Positions 40,255-61,566 of a stretch of 64,000 nucleotides of DNA are shown piece after piece; the first letter of the stretch is position 1, and every line of letters starts with the position of its first letter. The translations under genes were made by a program, and so were the position numbers. The DNA lies in NCBI RefSeq assembly GCF_014863355.1, contig NZ_JACZEP010000007.1:1-64000 (forward strand). The letters are read 5' to 3'. This stretch comes from Aminobacter carboxidus. GTDB lineage: Bacteria; Pseudomonadota; Alphaproteobacteria; Rhizobiales; Rhizobiaceae. Under the pieces are notes generated by a model. It was not told the origin of the DNA and did not search any database. It saw nothing but the letters and a program-made list of their open reading frames with translations.

Positions 40255-41172
40255 TTATCCGCCGTAGTAGTTCATGACGGCGTGTCGGGCCTCGGCGAAG
40301 AACAGCCAGCGCTCGACGACAAGACCGAGCGCGTAGAACAAGGCGGCCAGTGCCGCAGCCGGTAGGGCGACCGCGCCGCCGGCAAAGATCGCCGCCAGCA
40401 ACAGCGCGATGGGCGCCAGCCCGCCAACAAGGATGGCCAGTTCCGACAGCTTGAGCGCGTGCTTGCGCGCGACCTTGAACCCCATCTCGCGGGTCAGGTA
40501 GTTTTCATTGACATGCGGCCGTTCGAACAACCTGACATGGCCGATATTGCCGAGCCCGGTGGCGCTCTCGGGCGTCGACAACGGCGCCAGCGTCCGCAGC
40601 CGCTGCCACCACTGGTACTTGGCGACCCACGCTGCCATGACAAACACGATTGCGATGGCCGCGCAAATTGTGCCGCCGGCACTTGAAGAGTAGCCGGCGA
40701 CCGATGCAAGCAGGAAACCGCCGGCTGCGGCGAACAACAGGTAGCAAAGCGGCGTAAGCCCGCTGTTCCAGGCCTGGATCGAGCGCAGCGAGGCATAGAT
40801 CATCGCCGTGCAGTAGACGGTGATGCTACACATGACCGCGCCGATCAGTCCGGCAGCCGGAAGGTATCGGCCCTCGATCACAGCGAACCATGCCGAAACC
40901 GTCAGCGGCACGAAGGTCGCGATCGCCATCACGCCCTCGCGCGACAGCCAGCTTGAGCGCCATTGCGACAGCGCCCGCCATGCGCGCTGAGGATTGCCGA
41001 GATGCAACGTCGACGACAGCAGGCCGCCAGCGATCATCGCCAGCGCACCCGCATGGGCAAGCTTGGCCGACAGGGTCGAGGCATCGAGCAGGCCAAGGCC
41101 GAGCACCGCTGCCAGGCCGTAGCCGAGCCCGGAAAGCGTGGTGAACAAGATGATGGAGAATGCGGGATGCAT
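40255..41172 (-). CDS. soeC: Membrane anchor subunit, SoeC/DmsC family
   Basis: A protein of 305 residues with about eight hydrophobic segments and the DmsC/NrfD-like pattern (HPAFSIILFTTLSGLGYGLA, GGLLSSTLHLGNPQRAWRALSQWRSSWLSREG). The LGNPxRAW..SxWxxSWLSREG segment is diagnostic for DmsC-type anchors, which pass electrons between the iron-sulfur subunit and the quinone pool. It lies three bases after the soeB stop codon. Assigned to the sulfite dehydrogenase SoeABC because of the large subunit; a DMSO-reductase-type complex is the alternative. Confidence 0.8.
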   Translation of the reverse strand: MHPAFSIILFTTLSGLGYGLAAVLGLGLLDASTLSAKLAHAGALAMIAGGLLSSTLHLGNPQRAWRALSQWRSSWLSREGVMAIATFVPLTVSAWFAVIEGRYLPAAGLIGAVMCSITVYCTAMIYASLRSIQAWNSGLTPLCYLLFAAAGGFLLASVAGYSSSAGGTICAAIAIVFVMAAWVAKYQWWQRLRTLAPLSTPESATGLGNIGHVRLFERPHVNENYLTREMGFKVARKHALKLSELAILVGGLAPIALLLAAIFAGGAVALPAAALAALFYALGLVVERWLFFAEARHAVMNYYGG

Positions 41173-41175
41173 GTT

Positions 41176-41943
41176 TCAGATTCGGTCCAGCATGCCGTCG
41201 AGCCAGGCAAAGAAGCCCTTTGCGCCCTCAGTGTTTTCAGCGAGCACGGCAGAACCGGCACTTGCGGCCAGCGGCTTGCGCGGACGCGGCGGCAGGTATT
41301 TGTTGGTCGGGCGCGTGCCCTGCTCCGGCATCAGGTCATAGCCGCCGCGCTCGGCAACCATGCGCGAGACGTCGGAGCCGGGATCGGCGAGATCGCCGTA
41401 ATGCCGGGCGTTGGCCGGGCACGTGCGCACGCACGAAGGCACGCGGTCGATTTCCCTCAGTGTCTCATTGTAGACACGGTCGATGCACAGCGTGCATTTC
41501 TTCATCACGCCGGCGGCGAGATCCATTTCGCGCGCGCCATAAGCGCAAGACCAGGCGCAGAGGCCACAGCCGATACACTTGCTCTCGTCGACCAGAACGA
41601 TGCCGTCTTCGGCACGCTTGTAGGAGGCACCCGTCGGGCACACGGTGACGCACGGCGCGTCCTCGCAATGCAGGCATGACTTGGGGAAATGCACGATCCG
41701 CGCTTCGCCCGCTTCGCCGATCACCTGCCCGCCCTCCGGCACAACTTCGAATGTGTGAATGCGATTGAGGAAGGCGCCGGAGACATCGGCCCCATACGGG
41801 TCCTGGTCGGACAACGCCGCGCCATAGCCGCCGGTATTCCACTCCTTGCAGCTGATGACACAGGCATGGCAGCCGACGCAGACATCGAGGTCGATGACAA
41901 GGCCGAGCTTTTTGGGTGTCGGCAGCGACGGCAGACTGGTCAT
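41176..41943 (-). CDS. soeB: [4Fe-4S] ferredoxin-type subunit, SoeB/DmsB family
   Basis: Encodes 255 residues. Four cluster motifs are visible: CVGCHACVISC, CLHCEDAPCVTVC, CIGCGLCAWSC with a later CTLC, and a C-terminal CVRTC. It relays electrons between the molybdenum subunit and the membrane anchor. The long C-terminal tail after residue 200 is Pro/Arg-rich. ATG 41943 overlaps the soeA stop codon by four bases (ATGA), so the two are translationally coupled. No Tat or Sec signal, which indicates a cytoplasmic location. Confidence 0.88.
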   Translation of the reverse strand: MTSLPSLPTPKKLGLVIDLDVCVGCHACVISCKEWNTGGYGAALSDQDPYGADVSGAFLNRIHTFEVVPEGGQVIGEAGEARIVHFPKSCLHCEDAPCVTVCPTGASYKRAEDGIVLVDESKCIGCGLCAWSCAYGAREMDLAAGVMKKCTLCIDRVYNETLREIDRVPSCVRTCPANARHYGDLADPGSDVSRMVAERGGYDLMPEQGTRPTNKYLPPRPRKPLAASAGSAVLAENTEGAKGFFAWLDGMLDRI

Positions 41944-44789
41944 TTCGCCCACTCCTGGCCGTAGCGGAGCTCTTCGACATGCGGCCCCCCTCCACCCGGT
42001 TGCGCCAGGGCAGCAAAATGCGGCTCGCTGACCTCGGCCCGTTCGGCTTTCTCGATGCGCACCCTGAGGTCGTACCAGGCTGCCTGGCCGGTAATCGGAT
42101 CCGAGTTCGACCAGCGCATGCCGTCGCCCTTGGGTGGTAGAAGTTCGTGGATCAAGTGATTCATCAGGAAGCCTTTTTTGGCTTCGGGCGCATCCTTGTC
42201 GAGCGCCCAGGCACCCTCGCGCTTGCCGATCGCATTCCAAGTCCAGATCGTGCTCGAGTTGACCGCCTCCATCCGCGCTACTTCGACCTTGATGCGGCCA
42301 TGGTGCGAGATCACCCAGACCCAGTCGCCGTCGACGAGCCCGATCTCGTCGCAGATCGGGCCGGGCACGTAGAGCGGGTTCCTTGTGTGGATCTGCCTCA
42401 GCCAGGCATTCATCGAGCCCCAGGAATGGTACATCGCTGCCGGCCGCTGGGTGATGGCGTGGTAGGGGTACTCTTCGCGGCTGACCGCCGCCTCCTCGAA
42501 CGGCCGATACCAGACCGGCAACGGATCGAAGGTGGCGAGGATGCGCTCGCGATGCGTCTCGGGCGCCACCGGTTCGCGCAGACCCTCGGCCGAGAGCCGG
42601 AATTTCTGCATCGTCTCCTGGTAGAGCTGGAAAATGACCGGCTTCGGTTCGTCGAAGAAGCCCATGCGCACGCCAAAATCCTGGTAGGCCTTGTTGGCGT
42701 GCTTGAAGAACTGCGCTTCGAGTGGAATATGCGCCGAAAAGAACGAGCCATTCTCGATGTAGCGGTTGAGCTGTTCCGGATTGATCGCCCCGCGCCCTGC
42801 CCGGTCGCCATTGCTGCCGCGGAATCCGGCGAGCGGCCCAATGCCCGGCCGCCTTTCGTGGCGCACGATGTAGTCGGCATAATCCGCATAAAGCGCCTTG
42901 CCGCGGCTGTCGACGAAACCGGGCAGCTTGAGCCGGGCGCCAAGGTCGATCAGGACGCTCTGGAAGCCGCGCACGTCGCGATCGGGTTCGACCACCGGCC
43001 AGCGGATGGCATCCTGCACCGCGTCGGGCTCGGAGATCGGCCGGTCGAGCAGCGAAATGCAGTCATGGCGCTCGAGATAGGTCGTGTCGGGCAATACCAG
43101 GTCGGCATAGGCGACCATCTCCGAGGAATAGGCGTCCGAATAGATGATCTTCGGGATGCGGTATTCGCCAGTCTCAGGATCCTTGTCCTCGAGCATCTTG
43201 ATGACGCCCGCCGTGTTCATCGACGAGTTCCACGCCATGTTGGCCATATAGAGGAACATCAGGTCGATCGGGTACGGGTCGCCGGCATGCGCGTTGGCGA
43301 TCACCATGTGCATCAGCCCATGGGCCGAGATCGGCGCATCCCAGGAGAACGCCTTGTCGATGCGCATCGGCTTGCCGTCGGCGTCGATCAGCAGGTCTTC
43401 CGGGCCGCGCGGGAAACCGAGATGCGGGCCGGACAGCGGCTTGTTGGAGCCGAAATGCTCGGCCTTGCCGTGCGGCGTCGGATGCGCCTCGATCGGCTTG
43501 GGGTACGGCGGCTCGAAACGGAACGCACCGGGGCAATCGACAGCGCCGATCAGCACCTGCAGCATGTGCAGGGCGCGGGCCGTCTGGAAGCCGTTGGAAT
43601 GCGCCGAAAGCCCGCGCATGGCGTGGAACGACACCGGCCGTCCGACGAATGCCTCGTGGCGTTCGTCATTCATGTCGGTCCAGGACTGGTCGATCGTGAT
43701 CGCCTCGTCGAAGGCGACACGTGCGATCTCGGCGGCGAGGCCGCGAATGACATCGGCAGAGACGCCGGTCTCCGGGGCCACCGCTTCCGGCGCATATTGC
43801 GGATCGAGGTATTTCTCGGCCAAAAGCTGGAACGACGGCACCGCGAACCGCCCGTCCGGCAATTCCACCCGGCCTGACAAAGCTGCCCTTGCGCCTTTCG
43901 TGCCCAGCGGCACGACATGCTCCGTCACGGATTCAAAGACCTGCGGTCTGCCGCTGTCGTCGCGCACGAAAAGCCCGTGGTCGGCGCTTCCGGGCGCATC
44001 CATCACCAGCCAGGTCGCGTTGGAATAGCGCACGATGTAGTCGACATCGATTTTTCGCGCCTTCAGCAATTCATGCACGACGGCGAGGATCAGCAGGCCA
44101 TCGGTACCGGGCCGGATGCCGATCCAATTGTCGGCAACCGCCGAATAACCGGTGCGCACCGGATTGACCGAGACGAAGCGCGCGCCGCGCTTCTTGAGCT
44201 TCGAAATGCCGATCTTGAGCGGGTTGGAATCGTGATCCTCGGCGACGCCGAACATCACGAACAGCTTGGTCCGGTCCCAGTCGGGCGCGCCGAATTCCCA
44301 GAATGCGCCACCGATGGTCATGATGCCGGCGGCAGCCATGTTGACCGAGCAGAAGCCGCCATGGGCGGCGTAGTTGGGCGTGCCGAACTGCTGCGCCCAG
44401 AAGCCGGTCAGCGATTGCGACTGGTCACGCCCGGTGAAGAAGGCCAGCTTCTTCGGATCGGCCTGCCTGACCCCGTCAAGCCAGCCGGTCGCCAGCGCCA
44501 GGGCCTCGTCCCAGGAAATCTCCTTGAACTGGCCCAAGCCGCGCGGCCCGGTCCTGAGCAGCGGCGCACGCAGCCGCGCCGGAGCGTAATGCTGCATGAT
44601 GCCGGCCGAGCCCTTGGCGCACAGCACGCCGCGATTGACCGGGTGGTCGCGGTTGCCCTCGATGTAGCGGACCTTGCCATCCTTGAGATGAACGTCGATG
44701 CCGCAGCGGCAGGCGCACATGTAGCAGGTGGTCTTGCGGACCTCGTCGGAGACAGGTTCCGAAAGCGCTACATGCGGTTCTGACTTCAT
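41940..44789 (-). CDS. soeA: Molybdopterin catalytic subunit, SoeA-like sulfite dehydrogenase
   Basis: Encodes 949 residues of the DMSO-reductase superfamily. An N-terminal [4Fe-4S] motif is CYMCACRCG with a later Cys in GVLCAKGSAG. The probable molybdenum ligand is the Cys of GGFCSVNMA. There is no twin-arginine signal before it, so the enzyme faces the cytoplasm, as in SoeABC, which oxidises sulfite to sulfate and feeds quinone. Length, lack of signal and the NRDHPVNRGVLCAKGSAGIM block fit SoeA better than DmsA, PsrA or formate dehydrogenase. Function is inferred and not proven. First gene of soeABC. Confidence 0.8.
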   Translation of the reverse strand: MKSEPHVALSEPVSDEVRKTTCYMCACRCGIDVHLKDGKVRYIEGNRDHPVNRGVLCAKGSAGIMQHYAPARLRAPLLRTGPRGLGQFKEISWDEALALATGWLDGVRQADPKKLAFFTGRDQSQSLTGFWAQQFGTPNYAAHGGFCSVNMAAAGIMTIGGAFWEFGAPDWDRTKLFVMFGVAEDHDSNPLKIGISKLKKRGARFVSVNPVRTGYSAVADNWIGIRPGTDGLLILAVVHELLKARKIDVDYIVRYSNATWLVMDAPGSADHGLFVRDDSGRPQVFESVTEHVVPLGTKGARAALSGRVELPDGRFAVPSFQLLAEKYLDPQYAPEAVAPETGVSADVIRGLAAEIARVAFDEAITIDQSWTDMNDERHEAFVGRPVSFHAMRGLSAHSNGFQTARALHMLQVLIGAVDCPGAFRFEPPYPKPIEAHPTPHGKAEHFGSNKPLSGPHLGFPRGPEDLLIDADGKPMRIDKAFSWDAPISAHGLMHMVIANAHAGDPYPIDLMFLYMANMAWNSSMNTAGVIKMLEDKDPETGEYRIPKIIYSDAYSSEMVAYADLVLPDTTYLERHDCISLLDRPISEPDAVQDAIRWPVVEPDRDVRGFQSVLIDLGARLKLPGFVDSRGKALYADYADYIVRHERRPGIGPLAGFRGSNGDRAGRGAINPEQLNRYIENGSFFSAHIPLEAQFFKHANKAYQDFGVRMGFFDEPKPVIFQLYQETMQKFRLSAEGLREPVAPETHRERILATFDPLPVWYRPFEEAAVSREEYPYHAITQRPAAMYHSWGSMNAWLRQIHTRNPLYVPGPICDEIGLVDGDWVWVISHHGRIKVEVARMEAVNSSTIWTWNAIGKREGAWALDKDAPEAKKGFLMNHLIHELLPPKGDGMRWSNSDPITGQAAWYDLRVRIEKAERAEVSEPHFAALAQPGGGGPHVEELRYGQEWAK

Positions 44790-45134: not shown

Positions 45135-45560
45135 CTAGTTGGTGACGACAATGCGCGTGTTGCTCGCTCCCACTTCCCTGACCAGCGAGTAGAATCTGGC
45201 GGCGTTCGCCGTCTGCAGCCGGACACAGCCGTGCGATGCTGGGCGGCCCAGTTGCCTCACGGCACCCGTGCCGTGGATGGCGTAGCCGCCATTGTAGAAT
45301 ACCGAGTAGGGCATCGGCGAGTTGTCGTATTTCTGCGAGTACCACATCCGGTGCAGGCGCTTCGGCCGCCAGCTGCCGCGTGGCGTGACATATCCCCTGC
45401 GTGCCGTCGAAACCGGCCATTGGTGGATGACCCGACCATCGAAGCTGACGGTCATCGTCTGCGTCGCGATACTGACCCTTGCGACAAGAACATCTGCAAG
45501 TGCCTGAGTTGGAACGCCAGCAAAGCCCAATGCGGCGACCATGAAGAGAGCCTTGTACAT
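45135..45560 (-). CDS. L,D-transpeptidase (YkuD family)
   Basis: Encodes 141 residues. A signal peptide (ALFMVAALGFAGVPTQALA) is followed by a minimal YkuD domain. The catalytic motif is complete: H in IHGTGAVRQLGRPASHGCVRL with the nucleophilic Cys in SHGCVRL. Such enzymes make 3-3 peptidoglycan cross-links or attach proteins to peptidoglycan in the periplasm. ATG 45560 has GGGGAG ten bases upstream; the open frame extends a further 89 residues but that part lacks a family match. It is divergent from the amine oxidase operon. Confidence 0.88.
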   Translation of the reverse strand: MYKALFMVAALGFAGVPTQALADVLVARVSIATQTMTVSFDGRVIHQWPVSTARRGYVTPRGSWRPKRLHRMWYSQKYDNSPMPYSVFYNGGYAIHGTGAVRQLGRPASHGCVRLQTANAARFYSLVREVGASNTRIVVTN

Positions 45561-45742
45561 TCTTCGCACACTCCCCAAACCGGCAGTATTTTCCCTGCCC
45601 ACAGAAGATGGGAGCATAAAAAGCTGTACGGTTCGTAAATTGAACGCGAAAGATGTGCGCAACCAAAACACCCACCAGAGGTAGTATCGGCAGGCTTTCA
45701 GGTGGCCCAAACCAGTGCCGCTCGCCGCACCCTCTGGCCCAG

Positions 45743-45770
45743 TTGACTCGACCCGACATGGGCATAGGCT
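45743..45770 (+). promoter_or_regulatory. Possible sigma-70-type promoter for the amine oxidase operon
   Basis: TTGACT (45743-45748), a 16-base spacer, then TAGGCT (45765-45770) lie about 88 bases before the amine oxidase start. The -35 match is good and the -10 poor. This is a candidate only, in the 297-base divergent gap that otherwise shows nothing recognisable. Confidence 0.3.
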
Positions 45771-45857
45771 GCCCCGTGCAGCTGGGGCCACGTTCCAAGA
45801 TGCTCCAGCCGGATAACGTGCGGCCAACAGCGGACCGTCGCCCGGAGGATCTCAAAA

Positions 45858-47459
45858 ATGCAACCATCCCAATATTTTAGCGGCATGAGCAGGCGAAACC
45901 TGCTGTCGTTGATCGGCCTCACGGCAGGCACGGCGGCGATGTACCAGGCGATGACCAGCCTCGGGCTCGCGGTTGAGTCAGGCTACAAGGGACCGGTCAA
46001 GCTGGAAGGCGATCCGAAGGGCGCCAGCGTGCTCATCCTGGGCGCCGGTCTTGCCGGTATGACGGCAGCGCTCGAGCTCCGCCAGGCTGGCTACAAGGTC
46101 AAGATCCTCGAATACAACAACAGATCGGGCGGCCGTAACTGGACGCTGCGCGGCGGCGACACCTACACCGAACTCGGCGGCGCGACCCAGAAATGCGAAT
46201 TCGACGAAGGTCTCTACATCAATCCGGGCCCGTGGCGAATTCCATATCACCACAACGGGCTGCTCGCCTATTGCCGGCGTCTCGGCGTCACGCTGGAGCC
46301 GTTCCAGCAGATCAACCACAACGCCTTCCTTCATTCGTCCAAGGCCTTCGGCGGCAAGCCGCAGCGCGTGCGCGACATCAAGATCGATTTCCAGGGCCAT
46401 GTGTCGGAACTGCTCGCCAAGGTGGCGCACACCGGCAAGCTCGAAGGCGGCGTCACCAAACAGGACCAGGAAATGCTGGTCGAGGCTCTGCGCTCCTGGG
46501 GGGCGCTCGACAAGGACTATGCCTATACCAAGAGCGTCGCGAATTCGGAATTCCGCGGCTTTGCCAAGGATCCCGGCGGTGGCCTCGGCGCGGCACCGGT
46601 GCCGAGCGATCCGATTGCACTGACCGACATCCTGAGCTCAGGGCTGTGGGGGAGCCTCGCCAATTTCGCGCTCTACGAATTCCAGACGACAATGTTCCAG
46701 CCAGTCGGCGGCGTCGACATGATCGGCAAGGCCTTTACCAAGGAAGTCGGCGACCTGATCACCTACAACGCCAAGGTCTCGAAGATCCATCAGGACGACA
46801 AGGGCGTGACCGTCACTTACGAGGACGTACAGAAACCGGGCACGATGGCCGAGGAAAAGGCCGACTGGTGTATCTGCACCATTCCGCTGACCATCCTCAG
46901 CCAGATCGAGATCAATGTCGGCGCCCCGATGCAGGCGGCAATCGAGGCAGTGCCCTATGCCTCGTCGGTCAAGGTTGGCCTGCAGTTCAAGCGGCGCTTC
47001 TGGGAACAGGATGAGCTGATCTTCGGCGGCGTCAGCTATACCGACCTGCCGATCACCCAGATCTCCTATCCGAGCACCAGCTTCAACACCAACGGCAAGG
47101 GCGTTCTGCTCGGCGCCTACACTTGGAACGGCCCACACTCCTACGAGTTCACTTCGATGGCGCCGGAGGAACGCGTCAAGCGTGCCGTCGAGTACGGCTC
47201 GCAGATCCACCCGCAATACAAGGACGAGTTCGAGAACGGCATCTCGATGGCCTGGCACCGCTCGCCCTTCACACTGGGCTGCGCCGGCGACTGGACCGAG
47301 GAAGCGCGCAAGGAGCACTACGACAATCTCTGCCAGATCGACGGCCGCATCGTGCTGGCCGGCGAGCACGCATCCTACATTCCGGCGTGGATGGAAGGCG
47401 CGATCCTGTCGTCGCTCGATGCCATCACAAGGCTGCATCAACGCGTCGTCGCGGGATGA
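45858..47459 (+). CDS. Tat-exported FAD-dependent amine oxidase/dehydrogenase
   Basis: Encodes 533 residues. The N-terminus has the twin-arginine motif MSRRNLLSLIGL, so the folded flavoprotein is exported to the periplasm. A Rossmann FAD site follows: VLILGAGLAG (59-68), then ILEYNNRSGGRNWTLRGG. The C-terminal FAD block is LAGEHASYIPAWMEGAI (about 500-516). This is the flavin monoamine oxidase family. GGAGGAT precedes ATG 45858. The next gene is a periplasmic cytochrome c, so the enzyme may be a dehydrogenase using cytochrome c and not oxygen, as shown for NicA2/CycN in Pseudomonas putida. The substrate is unknown. Confidence 0.88.
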   Translation: MQPSQYFSGMSRRNLLSLIGLTAGTAAMYQAMTSLGLAVESGYKGPVKLEGDPKGASVLILGAGLAGMTAALELRQAGYKVKILEYNNRSGGRNWTLRGGDTYTELGGATQKCEFDEGLYINPGPWRIPYHHNGLLAYCRRLGVTLEPFQQINHNAFLHSSKAFGGKPQRVRDIKIDFQGHVSELLAKVAHTGKLEGGVTKQDQEMLVEALRSWGALDKDYAYTKSVANSEFRGFAKDPGGGLGAAPVPSDPIALTDILSSGLWGSLANFALYEFQTTMFQPVGGVDMIGKAFTKEVGDLITYNAKVSKIHQDDKGVTVTYEDVQKPGTMAEEKADWCICTIPLTILSQIEINVGAPMQAAIEAVPYASSVKVGLQFKRRFWEQDELIFGGVSYTDLPITQISYPSTSFNTNGKGVLLGAYTWNGPHSYEFTSMAPEERVKRAVEYGSQIHPQYKDEFENGISMAWHRSPFTLGCAGDWTEEARKEHYDNLCQIDGRIVLAGEHASYIPAWMEGAILSSLDAITRLHQRVVAG

Positions 47460-47508
47460 CGGCAGAACCGTTCATCCCTCAATCCTCGTTTTCGCAAGGC
47501 ATGTCGAC

Positions 47509-47922
47509 ATGACCCAGCAATCGAAACACGCAATCGGCCCATTCGCCGCCGCCGTCATTTTCTCTGCACTTTCTGCCAGTGCCGCCGTCGCCGACTCGGC
47601 AGGCGCAACCTTCAGCGACGGTGACAACTTCTCCGAAAAGACCGGCCAGGAACTCTACGCCAACGTCTGCCAGGCCTGCCACATGGACCAGGGCCAGGGC
47701 GCGGTCGGCGCCGGCAAGTACCCGGCGCTGGCCAAGAACGTGAACCTCGAGGCCGGTGGCTACCCTGTCTACGTCATCCTGCACGGTCTCAAGGGCATGC
47801 CGCCGGTCGGCAGCATGATGAGCGACGACCAGGTGGCCGCCGTGGTCAATTATGTCAGGACCAATTTCGGCAACGACTACAAGGACGCCGTGACGGCCGA
47901 AGACGTCGCCGGTTCGCGCTGA
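47509..47922 (+). CDS. Periplasmic c-type cytochrome
   Basis: Encodes 137 residues. A signal peptide ends near AAVADS. One haem motif, CQACH (54-58), is followed by a small class I cytochrome fold with GAGKYPALAKN and LKGMPPVGSMMSDDQVAAVVNYVRTNFGN, where a Met in MPPVGSMM is the likely axial ligand. It starts 49 bases after the amine oxidase gene and is its probable electron acceptor. ATG 47509 was chosen because the signal peptide begins there. Confidence 0.88.
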   Translation: MTQQSKHAIGPFAAAVIFSALSASAAVADSAGATFSDGDNFSEKTGQELYANVCQACHMDQGQGAVGAGKYPALAKNVNLEAGGYPVYVILHGLKGMPPVGSMMSDDQVAAVVNYVRTNFGNDYKDAVTAEDVAGSR

Positions 47923-48047
47923 CACATCATCGCCAAAGTTGACCGACGATCATGCACGAATCCAACAGGTTGGAACCACAGCTCTAGCGATCGAAGCAGC
48001 CGGTGATCCTGCTGGCTGCTTCCCTTCATGCGGCAAAGGAGAAAGAC

Positions 48048-48548
48048 ATGACAACACTGCGGATTTGCGCCGCCACGCTTGCGGCTGGCCTTTTCCTCAC
48101 CGGCAGCGCGATGGCCCAGGACGTCGTGCGCCACAAGAATCCGAATTCGGACTTCCCCATCGCCCAGGCTGTCGAAGTGCCCGCCGGTAAGACGACAGTC
48201 TATGTCAGCGGCGCCGTTCCCTCCGTCGTCGACGAAAAAGCCGAGAACGGCAGCCTCGCCGCCTATGGCAACACCAAGACGCAGACGGAATCGGTCCTGA
48301 AATCCATCGAAAAGACCCTCGACGGCCTCGGCCTGAAGATGGGCGACGTAGTCAAGATGCAGGTCTTCCTCGTCGGCGACCCCGACAAGGGTGGCAAGAT
48401 GGATTTTGGTGGCTTCATGGAGGGCTACACCAAGTTCTTCGGCACCAAGGAGCAGCCGAACCTTCCGGCGCGCTCGGTCATGCAGGTCGCCGGCCTCGTT
48501 GCCCCGGGCTGGCTGGTCGAGATCGAAGTCACCGCCGTCCGCCCCTGA
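48048..48548 (+). CDS. Exported RidA-family (Rid) imine deaminase-like protein
   Basis: Encodes 166 residues. It has a signal peptide (AATLAAGLFLTGSAMAQ), which is unusual because most RidA proteins are cytoplasmic. The Rid fold is clear: VYVSGAVPSVVDEK, TQTESVLKSIEKTLDGLGLKMGDVVKMQVFLVG, and the active-site PARSVMQVAGLVAPGWLVEIEV with the conserved Arg and the C-terminal Glu. Rid enzymes hydrolyse reactive imines and enamines, which is the product type of an amine dehydrogenase. AAAGGAGAAAGAC precedes ATG 48048. Third gene of the triad, 125 bases after the cytochrome. Confidence 0.88.
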   Translation: MTTLRICAATLAAGLFLTGSAMAQDVVRHKNPNSDFPIAQAVEVPAGKTTVYVSGAVPSVVDEKAENGSLAAYGNTKTQTESVLKSIEKTLDGLGLKMGDVVKMQVFLVGDPDKGGKMDFGGFMEGYTKFFGTKEQPNLPARSVMQVAGLVAPGWLVEIEVTAVRP

Positions 48549-48641
48549 GCGGAACGATCTGCGCAGGCTGCTTGCACACGCAGTCTGCGTGCTCGACAGG
48601 ACTTGGCGGATGCGCAAGACTGGTCAAAGATCCCGTCAAAG

Positions 48642-49940
48642 ATGAGTCACGTCGACCGCATGTATGACAAGCTTTTCAAGACCATAGACGACCGTCGTGA
48701 CGAAATGGCGGAGCTCACTGCGGAGCTGATCCGCTTTCCCACCATCAACCCGCCTGGCGACGCCTATCGCCCTTGCGCGGAATATTTGGGCAATCGCCTC
48801 GCCAAGCGCGGCTTCGGTGTCGAATACATCAGGGCTGTGGGCACGCCTGGCGACACCGACCGCTATCCGCGCATCAACGTCATTGCCCGTTTCGACGGCC
48901 GCACGGCGGGGCCTACCGTCCATTTCAATTCCCACATCGACGTCGTCGAGGCAGGCGAAGGCTGGTCGGTCGATCCCTTCGGCGGCGTCATCAGGGATGG
49001 CCGCGTCTATGGTCGTGGCGCCTGCGACATGAAGGGCGGCTTGGCTGCATCGATCATTGCCGCCGAGGCGTTCATGGACGTCAACCCGGATTTTCCCGGC
49101 GCCATCGAGATATCAGGCACCGTCGATGAAGAATCGGGCGGATTCGGCGGCGTCGCCTACCTCGCCGGCAAGGGATATTTCTCCAGGCCCAGGGTCGACC
49201 ATGTCATCATTCCCGAGCCGCTCAACAAGGACCGTATCTGCCTCGGCCATCGCGGCGTGTGGTGGGCGGAGATCGAGACCAAGGGCGAGATCGCGCACGG
49301 CTCCATGCCGTTCCTCGGCGACTGTGCCGTGCGCCACATGGGCGCCGTGCTCGAAGCCTTCGAACAAGAGCTGTTTCCCGCGCTCGACCGCAAGACGACG
49401 CGCATGCCGGTAGTGCCGGAAGGCGCCAGGCGCTCGACCATGAACATCAACTCGATCCATGGCGGCCAGACCGACGATTTCCGCCCCGGCCTGCCCTCGC
49501 CCAACGTGCCCGACTCCTGCCGGCTGACCATCGACCGCCGCTTCCTGCTGGAAGAAAAGATTGACGACGTCAAAGGCGAAGTCATCAGCATCCTCGACCG
49601 CCTGAAGCGCGAGCGAAAGAAATTCGACTACGAGATCCGCGACATCATGGAGGTGCAGCCACTGATGACCGAGCGCGACGCGCCGGTGGCGTCGGCGATT
49701 GCCCAGGGCATCCGCGAGATTTTCGACAAGGAGCCGGAATATGTCATCTCGCCCGGCACCTACGACCAGAAGCATGTCGCCCGCATCGGCCATTTGTACG
49801 ATTGCATCGCCTATGGCCCGGGTATCCTCGACCTTGCCCACCGGCCGGACGAATGGGTCGGCATCGACGACATGGTGCAATCGGCGAAGGTGATGGCAAT
49901 CGGCCTCGACATCTTGCTGCGTGGCCAGTTCAACGGCTGA
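48642..49940 (+). CDS. M20-family deacylase/peptidase (ArgE/DapE type)
   Basis: Encodes 432 residues. The binuclear zinc M20 site is complete: HIDVV (about 95), the bridging Asp in GRGACDMKGG (about 129), the DEESGG Glu pair (about 163) and a C-terminal His. It hydrolyses N-acyl or amide bonds, as in acetylornithine deacetylase and DapE. The substrate is unknown; the peptide transporter downstream suggests an imported peptide or N-acyl amino acid. The start is uncertain: TTG 48603 and ATG 48660 are alternatives, and no strong ribosome site is seen. It follows RidA by about 93 bases. Confidence 0.83.
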   Translation: MSHVDRMYDKLFKTIDDRRDEMAELTAELIRFPTINPPGDAYRPCAEYLGNRLAKRGFGVEYIRAVGTPGDTDRYPRINVIARFDGRTAGPTVHFNSHIDVVEAGEGWSVDPFGGVIRDGRVYGRGACDMKGGLAASIIAAEAFMDVNPDFPGAIEISGTVDEESGGFGGVAYLAGKGYFSRPRVDHVIIPEPLNKDRICLGHRGVWWAEIETKGEIAHGSMPFLGDCAVRHMGAVLEAFEQELFPALDRKTTRMPVVPEGARRSTMNINSIHGGQTDDFRPGLPSPNVPDSCRLTIDRRFLLEEKIDDVKGEVISILDRLKRERKKFDYEIRDIMEVQPLMTERDAPVASAIAQGIREIFDKEPEYVISPGTYDQKHVARIGHLYDCIAYGPGILDLAHRPDEWVGIDDMVQSAKVMAIGLDILLRGQFNG

Positions 49941-50020
49941 AAGGCCAAGCAACGCTTGTCAGCGGCGCGAGGAAACTCATTTCGGCAGCACCGCTGCAAT
50001 TGCAACAAACTTGATTTACT

Positions 50021-50050
50021 CGGCCGGAAAATCGCGCTTCTATCCGGCCG
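50021..50050 (+). other. Hairpin in the leader of the peptide transporter
   Basis: CGGCCGGA (50021-50028) pairs perfectly with TCCGGCCG (50043-50050) around a 14-base loop. It ends 27 bases before the start codon of the binding-protein gene. There is no T run, so it is not a terminator. It may tune mRNA stability or translation. Confidence 0.45.
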
Positions 50051-50077
50051 TCGAAGTCGAAGCGGGGAGATCTGAGT

Positions 50078-51559
50078 ATGAAGCAATGGAAAACCATCCT
50101 GGCAGCCGCAGCGCTGGCGCTGGCATCCAGCACCGCTGCTATGGCCGCCCGCACCGATCTTGTGCTTGGTATGCCGCTGGAGCCGCCGCATCTCGACCCG
50201 ACCGCGGGTGCCGCCGCCGCCATCGACGAAGTGTTCTACGCCAACGTCTTTGAAGGCCTGACCCGCATCGGCTCGCGTGGCGAGGTCCTGCCCGATCTGG
50301 CCGAGAGCTGGACGATCTCCGATGACGGCAAGACCTATACCTTCAAGCTGCGCTCCGGTGTGAAGTTCCATGACGGCAGCGACTTCGACGCCACCGACGT
50401 CAAGTTCTCGCTCGACCGCGCCCGCGGCGAAAGCTCGGTCAATGCACAGAAGGGTCTGTTCGCGCCGGTCGACACCGTCGAGGTCGTCGATCCGACCACC
50501 GTCAAGGTAACGCTCAAGAACCCGCTTGGCTCGTTCCTCTACAATCTCGGTTGGGGCGACGCGGTGATCGTTGCGCCAGAAAGTGCCGACACCAACAAGG
50601 AAAAGCCTGTCGGCACCGGCCCGTTCAAGTTCCAGAACTGGGCCAAGGGCTCATCGATCACGCTGGTCAAGACCGACGGCTATTGGGGCGACCCAGTGGC
50701 ACTCGACAAAGCCGAGTTCCGCATCATCCCGGATGCCGCGGCCGCCATCCCTGCCCTGCTTTCGGGTGACGTGCAGGCCCTGCCCAACTTCGCGCTTGGC
50801 GACGCGCTTGCCCAGGTCAAGGCCGACCCGCGCTTCAAGGTTGTCATCGGCACCACAGAAGGCGAAACGGTGCTTTCGACCAACAACAAGAAGCCACCCT
50901 TCGACAATCTCAAGGTCCGCCAGGCGATCGCGCATGCGCTCGACCGCAAGGCGCTGATCGACGGCGCGACCGGTGGCCTTGGCACGCCGATCGGCTCGCA
51001 TTTCGCGCCACATAACGCAGCCTATGTCGACCTGACCGGCACCTACCCGCACGACATCGCCAAGGCCAAGAAACTGCTCAAGGAAGCGGGCCTCGCCGAC
51101 GGCTTCAAGGCGACGCTCAAGCTGCCGCCCGTCGGCTATGCCCGCCAGGGTGGCGAGATCGTCGCTTCCCAGATGCGCGAGATCGGCATCGACCTGCAGA
51201 TCATCCCGGTCGAATGGGCCGACTGGCTCAAGCAGGCGTTCACCGACAAGGACTACGACCTGTCGATCGTCTCGCACACCGAGCCCAACGACATCGATAT
51301 CTATGCCCGCAAGGACTACTACTTCAATTACGACAACCCGGCCTTCAACAAGGTCATCGACGAGCTCAACCTGACCTCCGACGAGGCCAAGCGCACCGAA
51401 CTCTACAAGCAGGCGCAGAAGATCCTCGCCGACGATGCCGTCAACGGCTTCCTGTTCGAGCTGCCCAAGGTCGGCATCTGGGACGCCAAGGTCGAAGGCC
51501 TGTGGGAAAACTCGCCCATCCAGGCCAACGACCTCACCAAGGTGAAATGGGTCGATTGA
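50078..51559 (+). CDS. Peptide ABC transporter substrate-binding protein (family 5)
   Basis: Encodes 493 residues. A Sec signal peptide (ILAAAALALASSTAAMA) is followed by an extracellular solute-binding family 5 domain: LEPPHLDPTAGAAAAIDEV, LAESWTISDDGKTYTFKLR, then GTGPFKFQNWAKG and VRQAIAHALDRKALIDG. Captures di-/oligopeptides or related compounds in the periplasm for the two permeases and double ATPase downstream. GGGGAGATCTGAGT precedes the ATG. The M20 and amine oxidase genes upstream on the same strand suggest one catabolic unit. Confidence 0.9.
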   Translation: MKQWKTILAAAALALASSTAAMAARTDLVLGMPLEPPHLDPTAGAAAAIDEVFYANVFEGLTRIGSRGEVLPDLAESWTISDDGKTYTFKLRSGVKFHDGSDFDATDVKFSLDRARGESSVNAQKGLFAPVDTVEVVDPTTVKVTLKNPLGSFLYNLGWGDAVIVAPESADTNKEKPVGTGPFKFQNWAKGSSITLVKTDGYWGDPVALDKAEFRIIPDAAAAIPALLSGDVQALPNFALGDALAQVKADPRFKVVIGTTEGETVLSTNNKKPPFDNLKVRQAIAHALDRKALIDGATGGLGTPIGSHFAPHNAAYVDLTGTYPHDIAKAKKLLKEAGLADGFKATLKLPPVGYARQGGEIVASQMREIGIDLQIIPVEWADWLKQAFTDKDYDLSIVSHTEPNDIDIYARKDYYFNYDNPAFNKVIDELNLTSDEAKRTELYKQAQKILADDAVNGFLFELPKVGIWDAKVEGLWENSPIQANDLTKVKWVD

Positions 51560-51565
51560 CGACAA

Positions 51566-51592
51566 GGTGGCGCGCCGTCGCGGTGCGCCACC
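51566..51592 (+). other. Hairpin just after the binding-protein gene
   Basis: GGTGGCGC (51566-51573) pairs with GCGCCACC (51585-51592) around an 11-base loop, seven bases past the stop codon. Such intra-operon hairpins commonly protect the binding-protein mRNA and lower expression of the following permease genes. No T run follows. The next start is about 160 bases on. Confidence 0.55.
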
Positions 51593-51755
51593 CCTAGCCT
51601 CTGCGGGAGCGCGGCATGTTGCCTGCCAATGCGGGGTGCTCTGATGGAGTTCGTCGCCACTATTTCTGGGAGCATCGCAAGAGTTCTGTGAACTGCGCTT
51701 CCCCGCAACCTTTGCGAGCTTTCGAAGCGGCACTTTCTCGGGCAGTTTGCGCTTG

Positions 51756-52703
51756 ATGACGATCTATCTGCTCAAACGCCTGTTGATCGGAATTGCGACC
51801 CTCGTCGTCGCCTCGCTCGTCGTGTTCCTGATGCTCGAAGTCGTGCCGGGCGATCCGGCGCGGCTGATGTTGGGCATGAACGCCAGCGACGCGCAGGTCG
51901 AACTGCTGCGCGAGCAGATGGGGCTGAACCAGCCGCTGGCCCTGCGCTATCTCGACTGGGCCAGCGGCCTACTCCAGCTCGATTTCGGCAAGTCCTACAC
52001 CTATTCGGTGCCGGTGATCGACCTTATCAGGGAGCGGCTGGTCGTCTCCTTCCCGCTTGCCGTGATCGCACTGACCTTGTCGACGCTGATTGCCATTCCT
52101 GTCGGGCTGTTCGCCGCCGCGCGGCGCGGCAAGGCAGGCGACACTGCGGCGATGGCCGTGGCGCAGGTCGGTGTCGCCATGCCCAATTTCTGGTTCGCGC
52201 TGCTGCTCGTCTATGTTTTCGCCGTCTGGTTGCGGCTGGTGCCGGCCGGCGGCTTTCCCGGCTGGGGCAACGGCATCTGGCCCGCGCTCAAGGCGCTGAT
52301 CCTGCCAGCTCTCGCCCTTGCCTTGCCGCAGGCCGCGATTCTCGCGCGCGTCACCCGCGCCGCCTTGATCGAGGTGCTGAACGAAGACTACATCCGCACC
52401 GCCCGCGCCAAGGGCATGCCGATGCGCGCGGTCATGTGGCGGCACGCCTTGCGCAACGCCATGATCCCGGTGTTGACCATCATGGGCCTGCAGTTCGCCT
52501 TCCTGCTCGCCGGCACGATCATCATCGAAAACGTCTTCTACTTGCCAGGCCTGGGCCGCCTTGTCTTCCAGGCAATCACTCAGCGCGACCTGATCGTCGT
52601 CGAAAGCGTGGTCATGCTGCTCGTCGCCGCCGTCGTCCTGGTCAATCTGGCCGTCGATCTCTCCTATGCGCTTGTCGATCCGCGCCTGAGAGCGCGGCAA
52701 TGA
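51756..52703 (+). CDS. ABC transporter permease, DppB type
   Basis: Encodes 315 residues, six hydrophobic segments. Starts TIYLLKRLLIGIATLVVASL, with the DppB landmark EVVPGDPARLMLGMNAS and the inner-membrane EAA loop RAAL..LNEDYIRTARAKGMPMRAVMWRHALRNAMIPV. ATG 51756 is used; TTG 51747 is the alternative. Its stop overlaps the next start by four bases (ATGA), so coupling is expected. Confidence 0.9.
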   Translation: MTIYLLKRLLIGIATLVVASLVVFLMLEVVPGDPARLMLGMNASDAQVELLREQMGLNQPLALRYLDWASGLLQLDFGKSYTYSVPVIDLIRERLVVSFPLAVIALTLSTLIAIPVGLFAAARRGKAGDTAAMAVAQVGVAMPNFWFALLLVYVFAVWLRLVPAGGFPGWGNGIWPALKALILPALALALPQAAILARVTRAALIEVLNEDYIRTARAKGMPMRAVMWRHALRNAMIPVLTIMGLQFAFLLAGTIIIENVFYLPGLGRLVFQAITQRDLIVVESVVMLLVAAVVLVNLAVDLSYALVDPRLRARQ

Positions 52704-53562
52704 ACGAAACGACACCTCGAAGCGAAGGTTTCGGCGAATTGGTCGGCCGCGCGTTCGGCAACCGCTCCTTCGTCATCGGCCTCGTCATCACCCTGGTCGT
52801 CGCTGCCATGGCGGCCGTCTCGTTCTTCTGGACGCCCTTCGACGTCACCAGGCTGGTCGTTGCCGACCGCATGCAGCCACCCTCCGCCGAGCACTGGTTC
52901 GGCACCGACCATTTCGGCCGCGACGTGCTGTCGATGATCATGATCGGGGCACGCAACTCGATCGCTGTGGCGCTGGTCGCCGTCGTCATCGGCATGGGCA
53001 TCGGCGTGCCGCTCGGCTGCTGGGCGGCAGCGCGTGGCGGCTGGGTCGACGAGGCGCTGATGCGCTTCAACGATCTCGTCTTCGCCTTTCCCGCATTGCT
53101 GTCGGCGATCATGATCACCGCCGTTTTCGGACCGAGCGCGATCAACGCCATCATCGCCATCGGCATCTTCAACATCCCGGTCTTCGCCCGCGTCGCGCGT
53201 GCCGGCGCGCTGTCGATCTGGCCGCGCGAATACATCCTTGCCGCCCGTGCTGCCGGCAAGAACAAGACCCGAATCACCGTCGAGCACATCCTGCCCAACA
53301 TCGCCAACCTGCTCCTGGTGCAAGGCACCATCCAGTTCGCGCTTGGCATCCTGGCCGAGGCCGCCCTGTCTTATGTCGGGCTCGGCACGCAACCGCCGAT
53401 GCCGAGCTGGGGCCGCATGCTGTTCGACGCCCAGACGCTGATGATGGTGTCGCCATGGCTGGCGTTGTTCCCCGGCTGCGCCATCTTGATCACGGTGCTT
53501 GGGCTCAACCTGCTCGGCGACGGCATATCGGATATCTTCGATCCGCGGTCGAGGCGCCGCCC

Positions 53563-53566
<4 letters not shown>
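52700..53566 (+). CDS. ABC transporter permease, DppC type
   Basis: Encodes 288 residues. The N-terminal anchor is VIGLVITLVVAAMAAVSFFW. The DppC signature HWFGTDHFGRDVLSMIMIGARNS and the EAA loop REYILAARAAGKNKTRITVEHILPN are present, and the C-terminus ends GLNLLGDGISDIFDPR. The gene overlaps the upstream permease by four bases and the downstream ATPase by four bases, a tight operon. Confidence 0.9.
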
Positions 53567-55188
<1,622 letters not shown>

Positions 55189-59542: not shown

Positions 59543-60160
59543 TCAGTCCTTTCCGCCGGCGACTGTTCCTGAAACCGTCGACATCGCCGCCAGCGGCCCG
59601 CCACGCCAGAGATAGAGCGCGAGCAGCGGTTCGCTGCCGGTGCGCATCGCGTGATTCACATTGGAGGCATGGTGGATCACCTCGCCACCACGTCTTTGGC
59701 GAAACGGTGCGTCGCCCATCCGCCACTCGGCGCCGCCGGTCAGCGGGATGTAGACCTCTTCGGCGAGATGGTGATGGTCGGGGTACTCGACGCCGGGGCC
59801 GAGCATGAGAAACCCTGCTGCGACCTTGTCATTGACGTAGTGGCCACGGGTGCCGAAAAGCTCCACCCAGCCATAGTTGTCGATGAAACGCTGGCCGAAA
59901 TCGGCGGCTGTGTAGGTCTGGCCCCAGCGGAGTTCATCGCGTTGTGCTGCGAGAATTCTCGCCAACGGTCGCGACTCGGCGTGAGCCGATTCAATGCTGC
60001 GGTCGAGAAGTTCAGAACATTTGACACCGTTTGGCTTCAAAGGGCGGGCGGGCATTTGCCAGTCGATGTCGCCGAGGAACGAGCCTGCCGCTACCGCCGA
60101 ATCGGTTGCCTCGAGGTATTCTCTAAAGGCTTGCAGCAGCCCATCAAAATTTGTCGCCAC
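59543..60160 (-). CDS. Cupin protein of the DMSP-lyase (DddQ/DddL) family
   Basis: Encodes 205 residues starting with GTG 60160. The C-terminal cupin carries the metal-binding pattern of DMSP lyases: GVEYPDHHHLAEEVYIPLTGG (His, Glu, Tyr) and IHHASNVNHAM (His). Upstream, RWGQTYTAADFGQRFIDNYGWVELFGTRG is a family hallmark. Authentic members cleave dimethylsulfoniopropionate to dimethyl sulfide and acrylate, but many homologues in terrestrial Rhizobiales are of unproven activity. It lies upstream of cobQ on the same strand and is divergent from the valine-catabolism genes. Confidence 0.78.
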   Translation of the reverse strand: MATNFDGLLQAFREYLEATDSAVAAGSFLGDIDWQMPARPLKPNGVKCSELLDRSIESAHAESRPLARILAAQRDELRWGQTYTAADFGQRFIDNYGWVELFGTRGHYVNDKVAAGFLMLGPGVEYPDHHHLAEEVYIPLTGGAEWRMGDAPFRQRRGGEVIHHASNVNHAMRTGSEPLLALYLWRGGPLAAMSTVSGTVAGGKD

Positions 60161-60278
60161 GCCTGTTCTCGCCCATGCATTTGCGCACAGCCGCTCTGTT
60201 GAAGGTCGGGTTGCGCGGCCGCATCATTGGTCTAGATTGAGGCCCGCGCATAGCCGAAAAAACGACAGGGAGGCCGAC

Positions 60279-61454
60279 ATGGACGCCGCAATCGACGCGA
60301 CCGCCGGTCAGTTTGAGCTCAACGAAGATCAGCTGGCCATCCGCGAAATGGCGGGCAGTTTCGCCGCCGAGAAGGTGGCGCCTTTCGCGCTCGAATGGGA
60401 CAAGGCCAAGCACTTCCCCGAAGACGTCATCCGTGAAACCGGCCAGCTCGGTTTCGGCGGCCTCTACGTCAAGGAAGATGTCGGCGGATCCGCCCTCACC
60501 CGCCTCGACGCGGTGCTCGTCTTCGAGCAGCTGGCGCATGCCTGCCCGGGTTTTTCGTCCTTCATTTCGATCCACAACATGGCCGCGTCGATGATCGACC
60601 GGTTCGGCAACGAGGAGCAGCGCCAGCGTCTGTTGCCCAAGCTGACGTCGATGGAATGGCTTGCCAGCTATTGCCTGACCGAACCGGGCTCTGGCTCGGA
60701 CGCCGCAGCACTCAAGACGAAAGCGGTGCGCAGCGGCGGCAATGGCAGCGACTTCGTCGTCAATGGTACCAAGCAGTTCATTTCGGGCGCCGGCGACAGC
60801 GACGTCTATGTCGCCATGGTCCGCACCGGCGCCGACGGTCCCAAGGGTATCTCGACGCTGGTCATCCCCAAGGATGCGCCCGGCCTGTCATTCGGCGCCA
60901 ATGAACACAAGATGGGCTGGCACATGCAGTCGACCCGCCAGGTCATCTTCGACGATTGCAAGGTGCCGGCAGAAAACCTGCTTTCCAACGAAGGTGCCGG
61001 CTTCGGTATCGCCATGGCCGGCCTTGATGGCGGCCGCCTCAACATCGCCGCGTGCTCGGTCGGCGGGGCCCAGTCGGCGCTCGACAAGGCGCTTGCCTAC
61101 ACCGCCGAACGCAAGGCCTTCGGTCAGACCATCGACCGGTTTCAGGCGCTGCAGTTCCGCCTCGCCGACATGGAAACCGAGCTCCAAGCCTCGCGCCTGT
61201 TCCTCTACGCCGCTGCATCCAAGCTCGACCGCAAGGCGCATGACGCCTCGAAATGGTCGGCCATGGCCAAGCGCTTCGTCACCGATACCGGCTTCGACAT
61301 CGCCAACGACGCGCTGCAGCTGCTCGGCGGCTACGGCTATTTGCACGACTACGGCATCGAAAAGCTGGTGCGCGACCTGCGCGTCCACCAGATCCTCGAA
61401 GGCACCAACGAGATCATGCGGGTGATCATCGCCAGGCATTTGATTGGAAAGTAG
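60279..61454 (+). CDS. Acyl-CoA dehydrogenase, probably isobutyryl-CoA
   Basis: Encodes 391 residues. An FAD acyl-CoA dehydrogenase: YCLTEPGSGSDAAAL (substrate/FAD), AYTAERKAFGQTIDRFQALQF, and LGGYGYLHDYGIEKLVRDLRV with EGTNEIMR at the C-terminus. The pairing with 3-hydroxyisobutyrate dehydrogenase downstream points to isobutyryl-CoA in valine breakdown; other short branched chains are possible. GGGAGGCCGAC precedes ATG 60279. The open frame continues upstream, but that part is antisense to the cupin gene. Confidence 0.88.
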   Translation: MDAAIDATAGQFELNEDQLAIREMAGSFAAEKVAPFALEWDKAKHFPEDVIRETGQLGFGGLYVKEDVGGSALTRLDAVLVFEQLAHACPGFSSFISIHNMAASMIDRFGNEEQRQRLLPKLTSMEWLASYCLTEPGSGSDAAALKTKAVRSGGNGSDFVVNGTKQFISGAGDSDVYVAMVRTGADGPKGISTLVIPKDAPGLSFGANEHKMGWHMQSTRQVIFDDCKVPAENLLSNEGAGFGIAMAGLDGGRLNIAACSVGGAQSALDKALAYTAERKAFGQTIDRFQALQFRLADMETELQASRLFLYAAASKLDRKAHDASKWSAMAKRFVTDTGFDIANDALQLLGGYGYLHDYGIEKLVRDLRVHQILEGTNEIMRVIIARHLIGK

Positions 61455-61462
61455 CGGTTCGA

Positions 61463-61545
61463 GGGGAGTAAAGCAGTGCGGCAGTAAACTGCAACCTTCA
61501 CTCCCTATTGCCCCATTGCCCTACTCCCCTATTGCCCTATTCCCT
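61463..61545. repeat. Inverted pair of degenerate octamer arrays
   Basis: The right arm (61499-61545) is a run of 8-bp units of the types CCCTATTG, CCCCATTG, CCCTACTC and CCCTATTC. Its reverse complement resembles the left arm starting GGGGAGTAAAGCAG at about 61465, matching about 17 of 23 bases, so a long imperfect stem can form. It lies between the acyl-CoA dehydrogenase and mmsB genes. Same architecture as 8211-8303, but with a different unit sequence and length. Confidence 0.65.
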
Positions 61546-61566
61546 TCCCACTGGAGGAACCAACCA

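Follow-up and report, generated by a model that had tools for sequence, protein, structure and literature searches.

The closest described relative of the system considered here, a three-gene operon of Aminobacter carboxidus encoding a flavin adenine dinucleotide (FAD) enzyme of the L-amino-acid oxidase (LAAO) family, a c-type cytochrome and a Rid protein, is the lao-cccA-ridA operon of Gluconacetobacter diazotrophicus PAL5 (GDI2456-2454), which was published in 2016 (PMC5053998; this paper and the others are cited from extracts of their text, except where a main text is named). The Aminobacter operon lies in the first 64,000 nucleotides of contig NZ_JACZEP010000007.1 (assembly GCF_014863355.1), and this whole stretch is what we call the window. 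In G. diazotrophicus, two Tn5 insertions in lao abolish the production of indole-3-acetic acid and leave tryptophan largely unused, while most of the tryptophan-derived indole-3-pyruvate is lost in the mutants (PMC5053998). Cytochrome c maturation mutants, cited in the same paper, are left with 5% of the wild-type auxin, and its authors propose that the cytochrome C and RidA assist the LAAO.

The published G. diazotrophicus primers match exactly at six out of six in one of the loci that we collected (L240) and at five out of six in another (L239). L240 carries the same three genes as the window in the same order, with identities of 58.6, 49.6 and 55.2%. Its LAAO has a twin-arginine translocation (Tat) signal and its RidA is a Rid3-like protein with a signal peptide, as in the window; neither the export nor the subfamily of this RidA is noted in the extracts of PMC5053998. 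Judged by gene content and order, the operon of the window is a further member of the published lao-cccA-ridA type, for which a similar mechanism has already been proposed in print. For the Aminobacter operon, we propose as the best explanation, and with fair confidence, a periplasmic L-amino-acid dehydrogenase that would reduce its own cytochrome c, while Rid3 would hydrolyse the imino acid. Auxin synthesis, to which lao-cccA-ridA is tied in G. diazotrophicus (PMC5053998), was dropped as a firm role in Aminobacter, where no indolepyruvate decarboxylase (ipdC-type) match above the cut-off is found in the genome that holds the window (best 108 of 946 bits).

Several other systems share part of this arrangement. 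RidA and Rid3 were reported in 2015 to cluster with FAD amine oxidases (PMC4433059). A Tat-exported flavin-dependent amine oxidase (FAO) with an adjacent Sec-exported cytochrome c is a good predictor of dehydrogenase function, and most of the tested Tat-exported FAOs without such a neighbour react well with O2 (PMC12224317). The window has this architecture, by motif and hydropathy, with a Tat signal on the FAO and a Sec signal on the adjoining cytochrome, and thus resembles dehydrogenases of the NicA2/Pnao-CycN type (PMC12224317, PMC9396064). Unlike these, its enzyme is closer to LAAOs, has an amino-acid-type active site and is accompanied by an exported Rid protein; the terms 'Rid' and 'amino acid oxidase' have no occurrence in the main text of PMC12224317. 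In Chlamydomonas, LAO1 and LAO2/RIDA are drawn in the periplasm, so that, as in the window, an LAAO and a RidA are placed beyond the cytoplasm, and tryptophan is converted to indole-3-pyruvate; LAO1, however, is eukaryotic and reported as a peroxide-forming oxidase, with no cytochrome c partner described in the extracts (PMC10805672). DadY and DbuB are, like the Rid protein of the window, tied to an FAD amino-acid enzyme (PMC9714295, PMC12724383). They differ in acting with alanine and D-branched-chain amino acids, DbuB is called a Rid2, and no exported Rid is mentioned in the extracts of either paper. A Rid6 protein is predicted to serve a cytoplasmic enzyme of a nicotine pathway (PMC7688666), and no like cluster was found in the extracts of PMC5017801 on Bradyrhizobium blr7984.

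We found no exported or periplasmic bacterial Rid protein described in the open-licence literature, which is no proof of absence. The words 'signal' and 'periplasm' do not occur in the main text of PMC5619798, nor do 'periplasm' and 'signal peptide' in that of PMC4433059. Likewise, the tight linkage of Rid3 to LAAO, the export of Rid3 and the apparent joint change of compartment presented below were not found in the literature. The preliminary description of the locus had held a Rid protein dedicated to a periplasmic amine enzyme to be not well described: this stands for the export of a bacterial Rid protein, and it does not for the operon, published in 2016 with like roles.

The three proteins and their predicted export

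All three genes lie on one strand, with 49 bases between the stop of the flavoprotein gene and the ATG of the cytochrome gene, and 125 between the stop of the latter and the ATG of the Rid gene (Table 1). The open reading frames agree here with what the preliminary description had listed, namely a Tat-signal FAD gene, a CQACH cytochrome and a signal-peptide RidA separated by these gaps. The three proteins (P0001, P0002 and P0003) exceed the cut-offs of their Pfam families (PF01593; PF13442 and PF00034; PF01042, respectively), and none of them is above the cut-off of an NCBIfam model among the matches listed. Signal peptides were judged throughout from motif and hydropathy with our own scripts, and not with SignalP. 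In P0001, the twin-arginine motif reads SRRNLL, and no charged residues occur in the stretch behind it. The N-terminus of P0002 is of Sec type by the same measures and its heme motif is CQACH, while that of P0003, MTTLRICAATLAAGLFLTGSAMAQ, is of Sec type and ends in AMA.

Table 1. Positions in the window of the operon, its signal regions and the genes downstream.
Feature	Positions	Strand	Basis or remark
FAD L-amino-acid oxidase/dehydrogenase (LAAO) homologue with Tat signal, P0001, 533 aa	45858..47459	+	PF01593 194 bits; 2jae E 1.6e-86
Tat signal region MSRRNLLSLIGLTAGTAAMYQAMTSLGLAVES of P0001	45885..45980	+	hydropathy and charge measured
c-type cytochrome with Sec signal, P0002, 137 aa, CQACH	47509..47922	+	PF13442 50 bits
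Rid3-subfamily imine deaminase homologue (predicted) with Sec signal peptide, P0003, 166 aa	48048..48548	+	PF01042 72 bits
Sec signal peptide of P0003	48048..48116	+	cleavage expected after AMA, residue 23
M20-family deacylase and family-5 ABC transporter genes	48603..55188	+	downstream, same strand as operon

The best solved relative of P0001 is the LAAO of Rhodococcus opacus (2jae), followed by tetrapod and snake LAAOs, and NicA2 is absent among the best 60 of the 87 solved chains that match. The carboxylate-binding residues of these enzymes, which we take to be Arg84 and Tyr371 in R. opacus LAAO, have their positions occupied in P0001 by R127 and Y421, according to our reading of the alignment. 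R127 is kept in 158/158 homologue rows and Y421 in 155/158 (the other three have Phe), rows in which, as in those of Rid3 below, one gene is counted repeatedly where loci overlap; once near-copies are removed, the counts are 75/75 and 72/75. Since P0001 is nearest to LAAOs and keeps the carboxylate Arg and Tyr, it appears adapted to amino acids and not to amines. On these grounds it is a likely member of the LAAO family of the R. opacus and snake type, with an L-amino acid as its likely substrate. The label of amine dehydrogenase given earlier was thus right about an FAD protein, which is better read as belonging to the L-amino-acid oxidase/dehydrogenase family, and the amine that had been named as substrate gives way to a likely L-amino acid, converted to an imino acid and a 2-oxo acid. 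An identity as a NicA2-type amine dehydrogenase was rejected, the nearest solved relatives being LAAOs.

How the cytochrome gene is distributed over this family was read from a tree that comprises 75 LAAO cores, chosen from the 158 rows so as to share no more than 80% identity; support is below 95 at some of its deep forks. The cytochrome label was set by hand in five loci (L186, L190, L191, L192 and L194), where signal-bearing CXXCH proteins lie between LAAO and Rid3; this changed the label of L191 and L192 only, bringing the cytochrome-linked rows from 51 to 53. These 53 rows need two changes on the tree, against a mean of 19.1 after shuffling (0/500 shuffles as low), and they share their side of the tree with a single long-branch row that lacks a cytochrome (L140). 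In the sampled cyanobacteria and Pseudomonas, the Rid3-LAAO pair occurs without a cytochrome gene. Judged by the tree, LAAO and cytochrome c appear to have been associated early and lastingly in the clade to which P0001 belongs, and seem not to be associated in the clade that includes the sampled cyanobacteria and Pseudomonas. Two clades of one LAAO family, one cytochrome-linked and one cytochrome-free, make a matched set for finding what determines oxidase or dehydrogenase behaviour. As a separate observation, residue 126 of P0001 (46233-46235), directly before Arg127, is Trp in 94% of the cytochrome-linked LAAOs and Ala in 90% of the others, and its column is the only one that separates the two clades at the 85% level, the long-branch row L140 being excluded.

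For P0003, the nearest solved structures are PSPTO3006 (E 3.4e-38) and PFL1385 (E 2.1e-37), the next one being at 1e-6. Both of these proteins are assigned to Rid3, and in vitro they hydrolyse the imines that a venom LAAO makes from five amino acids (PMC5619798). The Rid3 pattern consists of a retained catalytic Arg and Glu with the Tyr17 position changed to Ile (PMC4433059), and P0003 fits it with Ile38, Arg142 and Glu160. All of the 193 scored rows of relatives (repeats included) retain the catalytic Arg, and 191 of them the Ile. By pattern and nearest structures P0003 is a member of the Rid3 subfamily, and an imine deaminase activity is predicted for it. N-terminal hydropathy is 2.15 for P0003, whereas 10 of the 11 other Rid-family proteins that were scored in the same genome stay at or below 1.03 (out of 16 such genes, most scored at an extrapolated position). 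In the 193 Rid3 rows this value has two peaks: it is at least 1.65 in 177 rows and lower in 16, of which 15, repeats included, come from a single Pseudomonas clade and the last is a truncated frame. By this measure, almost every sampled Rid3 relative would thus carry a signal for export. By eye, some of these proteins resemble lipoproteins (e.g., L021, L023, L156 and L159) and one has a membrane anchor (L025); since Rid3 is seen as soluble, lipoprotein-like and anchored, the export route varies while export persists.

Two side observations concern Rid proteins at other loci. One further Rid-family protein, not a Rid3, seems to carry a signal peptide: it is the one among the 11 scored whose N-terminus does show a hydrophobic segment, and it is encoded outside the window on another contig of the same genome (C26, L145, 978-1532, minus strand), near a TetR-like regulator and a cold-shock-like protein as read from the sequence. 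In addition, Rid3 genes with an export signal occur without LAAO in the covered flanks at L100, L107, L112, L115, L118, L119, L120 and L122.

Linkage across genomes and an apparent joint change of compartment

The three genes adjoin each other in 9/9 other genomes drawn from the genus Aminobacter, in which the LAAO also has a comparable Tat-like stretch (L028-L036). With thresholds of E up to 1e-12 for Rid3 and up to 1e-60 for LAAO in the class sample (289 genomes), Rid3 was found in 10 genomes, LAAO in 16 and both in 9, where they are linked in all cases. The phylum sample (398 genomes) has Rid3 in 25, LAAO in 27 and both in 24, again linked in 24/24. As the two samples overlap by three genomes holding both, there are 30 distinct ones in total, and the Rid3-LAAO distance does not exceed 3,503 bases in any of them (median 503; within 726 in 26 of them). 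In the phylum sample minus the genome of the window, both genes occur together in 23 genomes where 1.6 are expected (hypergeometric p ~5e-33, kinship uncorrected). The conserved neighbourhood and co-occurrence of RidA with the FAD protein, put forward earlier as a check, are thus borne out.

Among Rid3 loci of named genomes, we considered the best 80 of 574 confirmed ones, which lean to near relatives and at least three of which are also in the genus draw. In this set, 72 loci have an LAAO gene upstream in the same orientation (broken into several frames in one, L072), and 64 of these 72 also have a cytochrome c homologue, the other eight being all cyanobacteria by name. Apart from this set, one contig was seen to hold two LAAO and two Rid3 genes within about 9 kb (G465, contig C5, 58921-68040).

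Pseudomonas provides the case in which export itself differs. The sample comprises 119 genomes, the genus name resting on the near-identity of their Rid3 to PSPTO3006 and PFL1385. LAAO occurs in 27 of them, three of the matches (G710, G728 and G704) being listed with one in-frame stop and kept in the counts, and Rid3 adjoins LAAO in 27/27. An ordinary Tat-like LAAO stretch goes together with a signal-peptide Rid3 in 16 of them. In the other 11 (L202-L212), the twin arginine is retained, charged residues appear in the Tat core (AVGGEQAAKDALAALGLG and variants), and Rid3 is signal-less, starting directly, mostly with MSDSIQRTS. The two solved Rid3 proteins represent one form each: the alignment of PSPTO3006 with the signal-less Rid3 of L202 begins at its residue 1 (E 5.8e-73), and so does that of PFL1385 with the exported Rid3 of L225, its signal being part of the match (E 9.3e-96). 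Because the decay of the Tat stretch and the loss of the Rid3 signal are found in the same clade, enzyme and Rid3 seem, from their N-termini, to have changed compartment together in one Pseudomonas clade.

Proposed mechanism and its rivals

The sequences show the order of the genes, their export signals and catalytic residues, the linkage across phyla, the joint signal change and the orthology with lao-cccA-ridA; beyond this we infer that the acceptor is cytochrome c, that Rid3 is active in the periplasm and what the substrate is in Aminobacter. In the mechanism that we propose, the operon would be a periplasmic L-amino-acid catabolic unit. The Tat-exported flavoprotein would oxidise an L-amino acid to the 2-imino acid, the substrate being tryptophan in the G. 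diazotrophicus orthologue and probably several amino acids in general. Its FADH2 would be reoxidised by the cytochrome c of the adjacent gene, which in turn would feed the respiratory chain; through this reoxidation the enzyme would act as a dehydrogenase and not as a peroxide-making oxidase. In the same compartment, the Sec-exported Rid3 would then hydrolyse the released imino acid to ammonia and the 2-oxo acid before other molecules can react with it. This is most likely the mechanism of the preliminary description with an amino acid in place of the amine, and its idea of a three-part periplasmic system is backed by the conserved neighbourhood, the export signals and the catalytic residues.

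In broader terms, and a little less firmly, we consider it probable that Rid3 is an exported imine deaminase that tracks the compartment of one exported LAAO/dehydrogenase family. It would do so as a soluble, lipoprotein or tethered form, with cytochrome-coupled as well as cytochrome-free enzymes, and would have returned to the cytoplasm with its enzyme in the Pseudomonas clade. Rid proteins have mostly been described as protecting cytoplasmic pyridoxal-phosphate (PLP) enzymes from 2-aminoacrylate, and the enzymes partnered by DadY and DbuB are cytoplasmic. A Rid3 that is periplasmic beside one flavoenzyme would therefore hardly be a guard of PLP enzymes. If this broader reading is true, then, as far as our searches reach, no bacterial Rid system was previously known to act outside the cytoplasm, and no flavoprotein of LAAO type to be coupled to cytochrome c. 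A periplasmic Rid3 suggests that imine hydrolysis accompanies the reaction of the flavoenzyme as a partner step, raises the question of what imino acids damage beyond the cytoplasm, and makes LAAO a named candidate for the source of the Rid3 substrate.

A number of observations weigh against the proposed mechanism. The switch of localisation in Pseudomonas is, as read from the LAAO tree, a single event, with one change of the label for the Rid3 signal, and the label 'Rid3 beside LAAO' needs 11 changes, partly owing to flanks of 1.5 kb. Gene order is variable (Rid3 precedes LAAO in G054, G215 and G311, and lies on the opposite strand in G139), and in G187 and, as a truncated frame, in G614, Rid3 is not accompanied by this LAAO. 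Within the covered flanks, no LAAO was found at eight of the best 80 of 574 Rid3 loci (two of Alcaligenes, three of Dyella, one each of Citreimonas and Nodosilinea, and a gammaproteobacterial metagenome-assembled genome). No Rid3 was found in the LAAO genomes G056, G225, G226, G271, G286, G301 and G319 of the class sample or G391, G449 and G624 of the phylum sample; in G226, G391, G449 and G624 the LAAO nevertheless has an adjoining cytochrome homologue. G650 and G565 hold extra LAAO copies distant from Rid3. From the Rid3-less LAAO/cytochrome genomes and these extra copies, Rid3 is therefore dispensable in some lineages. To these points are added the retention in P0001 of the lysine at flavin N5 that is linked to O2 reactivity (K372, in 75/75 LAAO cores of both clades) and the fact that R. 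opacus LAAO, its nearest solved relative, is termed an oxidase. Finally, in the lao Tn5 mutant that was tested, all three operon transcripts fall, leaving the roles of cccA and ridA unseparated (PMC5053998).

The alternative that fares best, though we think it unlikely, is that P0001 is a genuine periplasmic oxidase, taking O2 as acceptor and giving off peroxide, for nutrient scavenging or antagonism, with a cytochrome that serves otherwise, e.g., in peroxide removal, and with Rid3 still hydrolysing the imine. It can draw on K372, on the deep clade of the same exported family (sampled cyanobacteria and Pseudomonas) that has no adjoining cytochrome gene, and on the O2 reactivity of most tested Tat-exported FAOs without a neighbouring cytochrome (PMC12224317). 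The lysine, however, cannot tell the acceptor, because it is present in nearly all dehydrogenases and oxidases of that study alike; we dropped it as a sign of an oxidase, as it is conserved in the cytochrome-linked and the cytochrome-free clades. The cytochrome-linked rows, moreover, lie on one side of the tree, with far fewer changes than after shuffling, and the low auxin of the cytochrome c maturation mutants speaks for a cytochrome-dependent reaction, both of which favour the cytochrome c-reducing dehydrogenase.

Slightly less probable again is a Rid3 that acts as a structural or stabilising subunit of the LAAO, or as a protector against reactive oxidants, and not as an imine hydrolase. 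The close genetic linkage would suit such a role, and a Chlamydomonas LAAO/RidA complex in which RidA is non-catalytic is cited in PMC5053998. Against this stand the catalytic Arg, kept in every scored row, and the hydrolysis of LAAO-made imines by both Rid3 proteins tested (PMC5619798), which argue for a Rid3 that hydrolyses the imino acid.

That the flavoprotein acts on amines or alkaloids like NicA2 and Pnao seems very improbable to us: the superfamily and the export/cytochrome architecture are the same, but LAAOs are the nearest solved relatives with NicA2 outside the best 60 chains, the carboxylate-site Arg and Tyr are retained, and the orthologue is required in vivo for the use of tryptophan (PMC5053998). 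A chance neighbourhood with no functional link, for which one could invoke the genes downstream that are only local synteny, can practically be set aside, given the linkage in every one of the 30 genomes with both genes and their co-occurrence, even with kinship uncorrected.

Neighbouring genes

Downstream of the operon, the M20-family deacylase reaches 761 bits with NF009558, against a cut-off of 428, and is accompanied by the genes of a family-5 ATP-binding cassette (ABC) transporter. M20 and ABC genes are present in 16/16 loci of Aminobacter and near Mesorhizobium (L028-L036 and L046-L052, three genomes being represented twice). In 15 further loci (L053-L067), there is no M20 match and ABC matches are scattered (L055, L061 and L062). 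These genes were thus ruled out as part of the operon core, as they are linked to it only in Aminobacter and near relatives; they perhaps provide a local supply of amino acids or peptides.

On the other side, divergent from the operon, an L,D-transpeptidase (YkuD) gene lies upstream (45135-45827, minus strand), and a molybdopterin oxidoreductase, a 4Fe-4S protein and a membrane subunit are encoded at 40255-44789 (minus strand), as read from the open reading frames. The YkuD gene is conserved in the same 16 loci, as is the large subunit of the molybdopterin oxidoreductase in the vicinity. Farther downstream, acyl-CoA dehydrogenase-like and 3-hydroxyisobutyrate dehydrogenase-like genes, again by reading of the frames, stand in a row at 59994-62451, as in valine breakdown.

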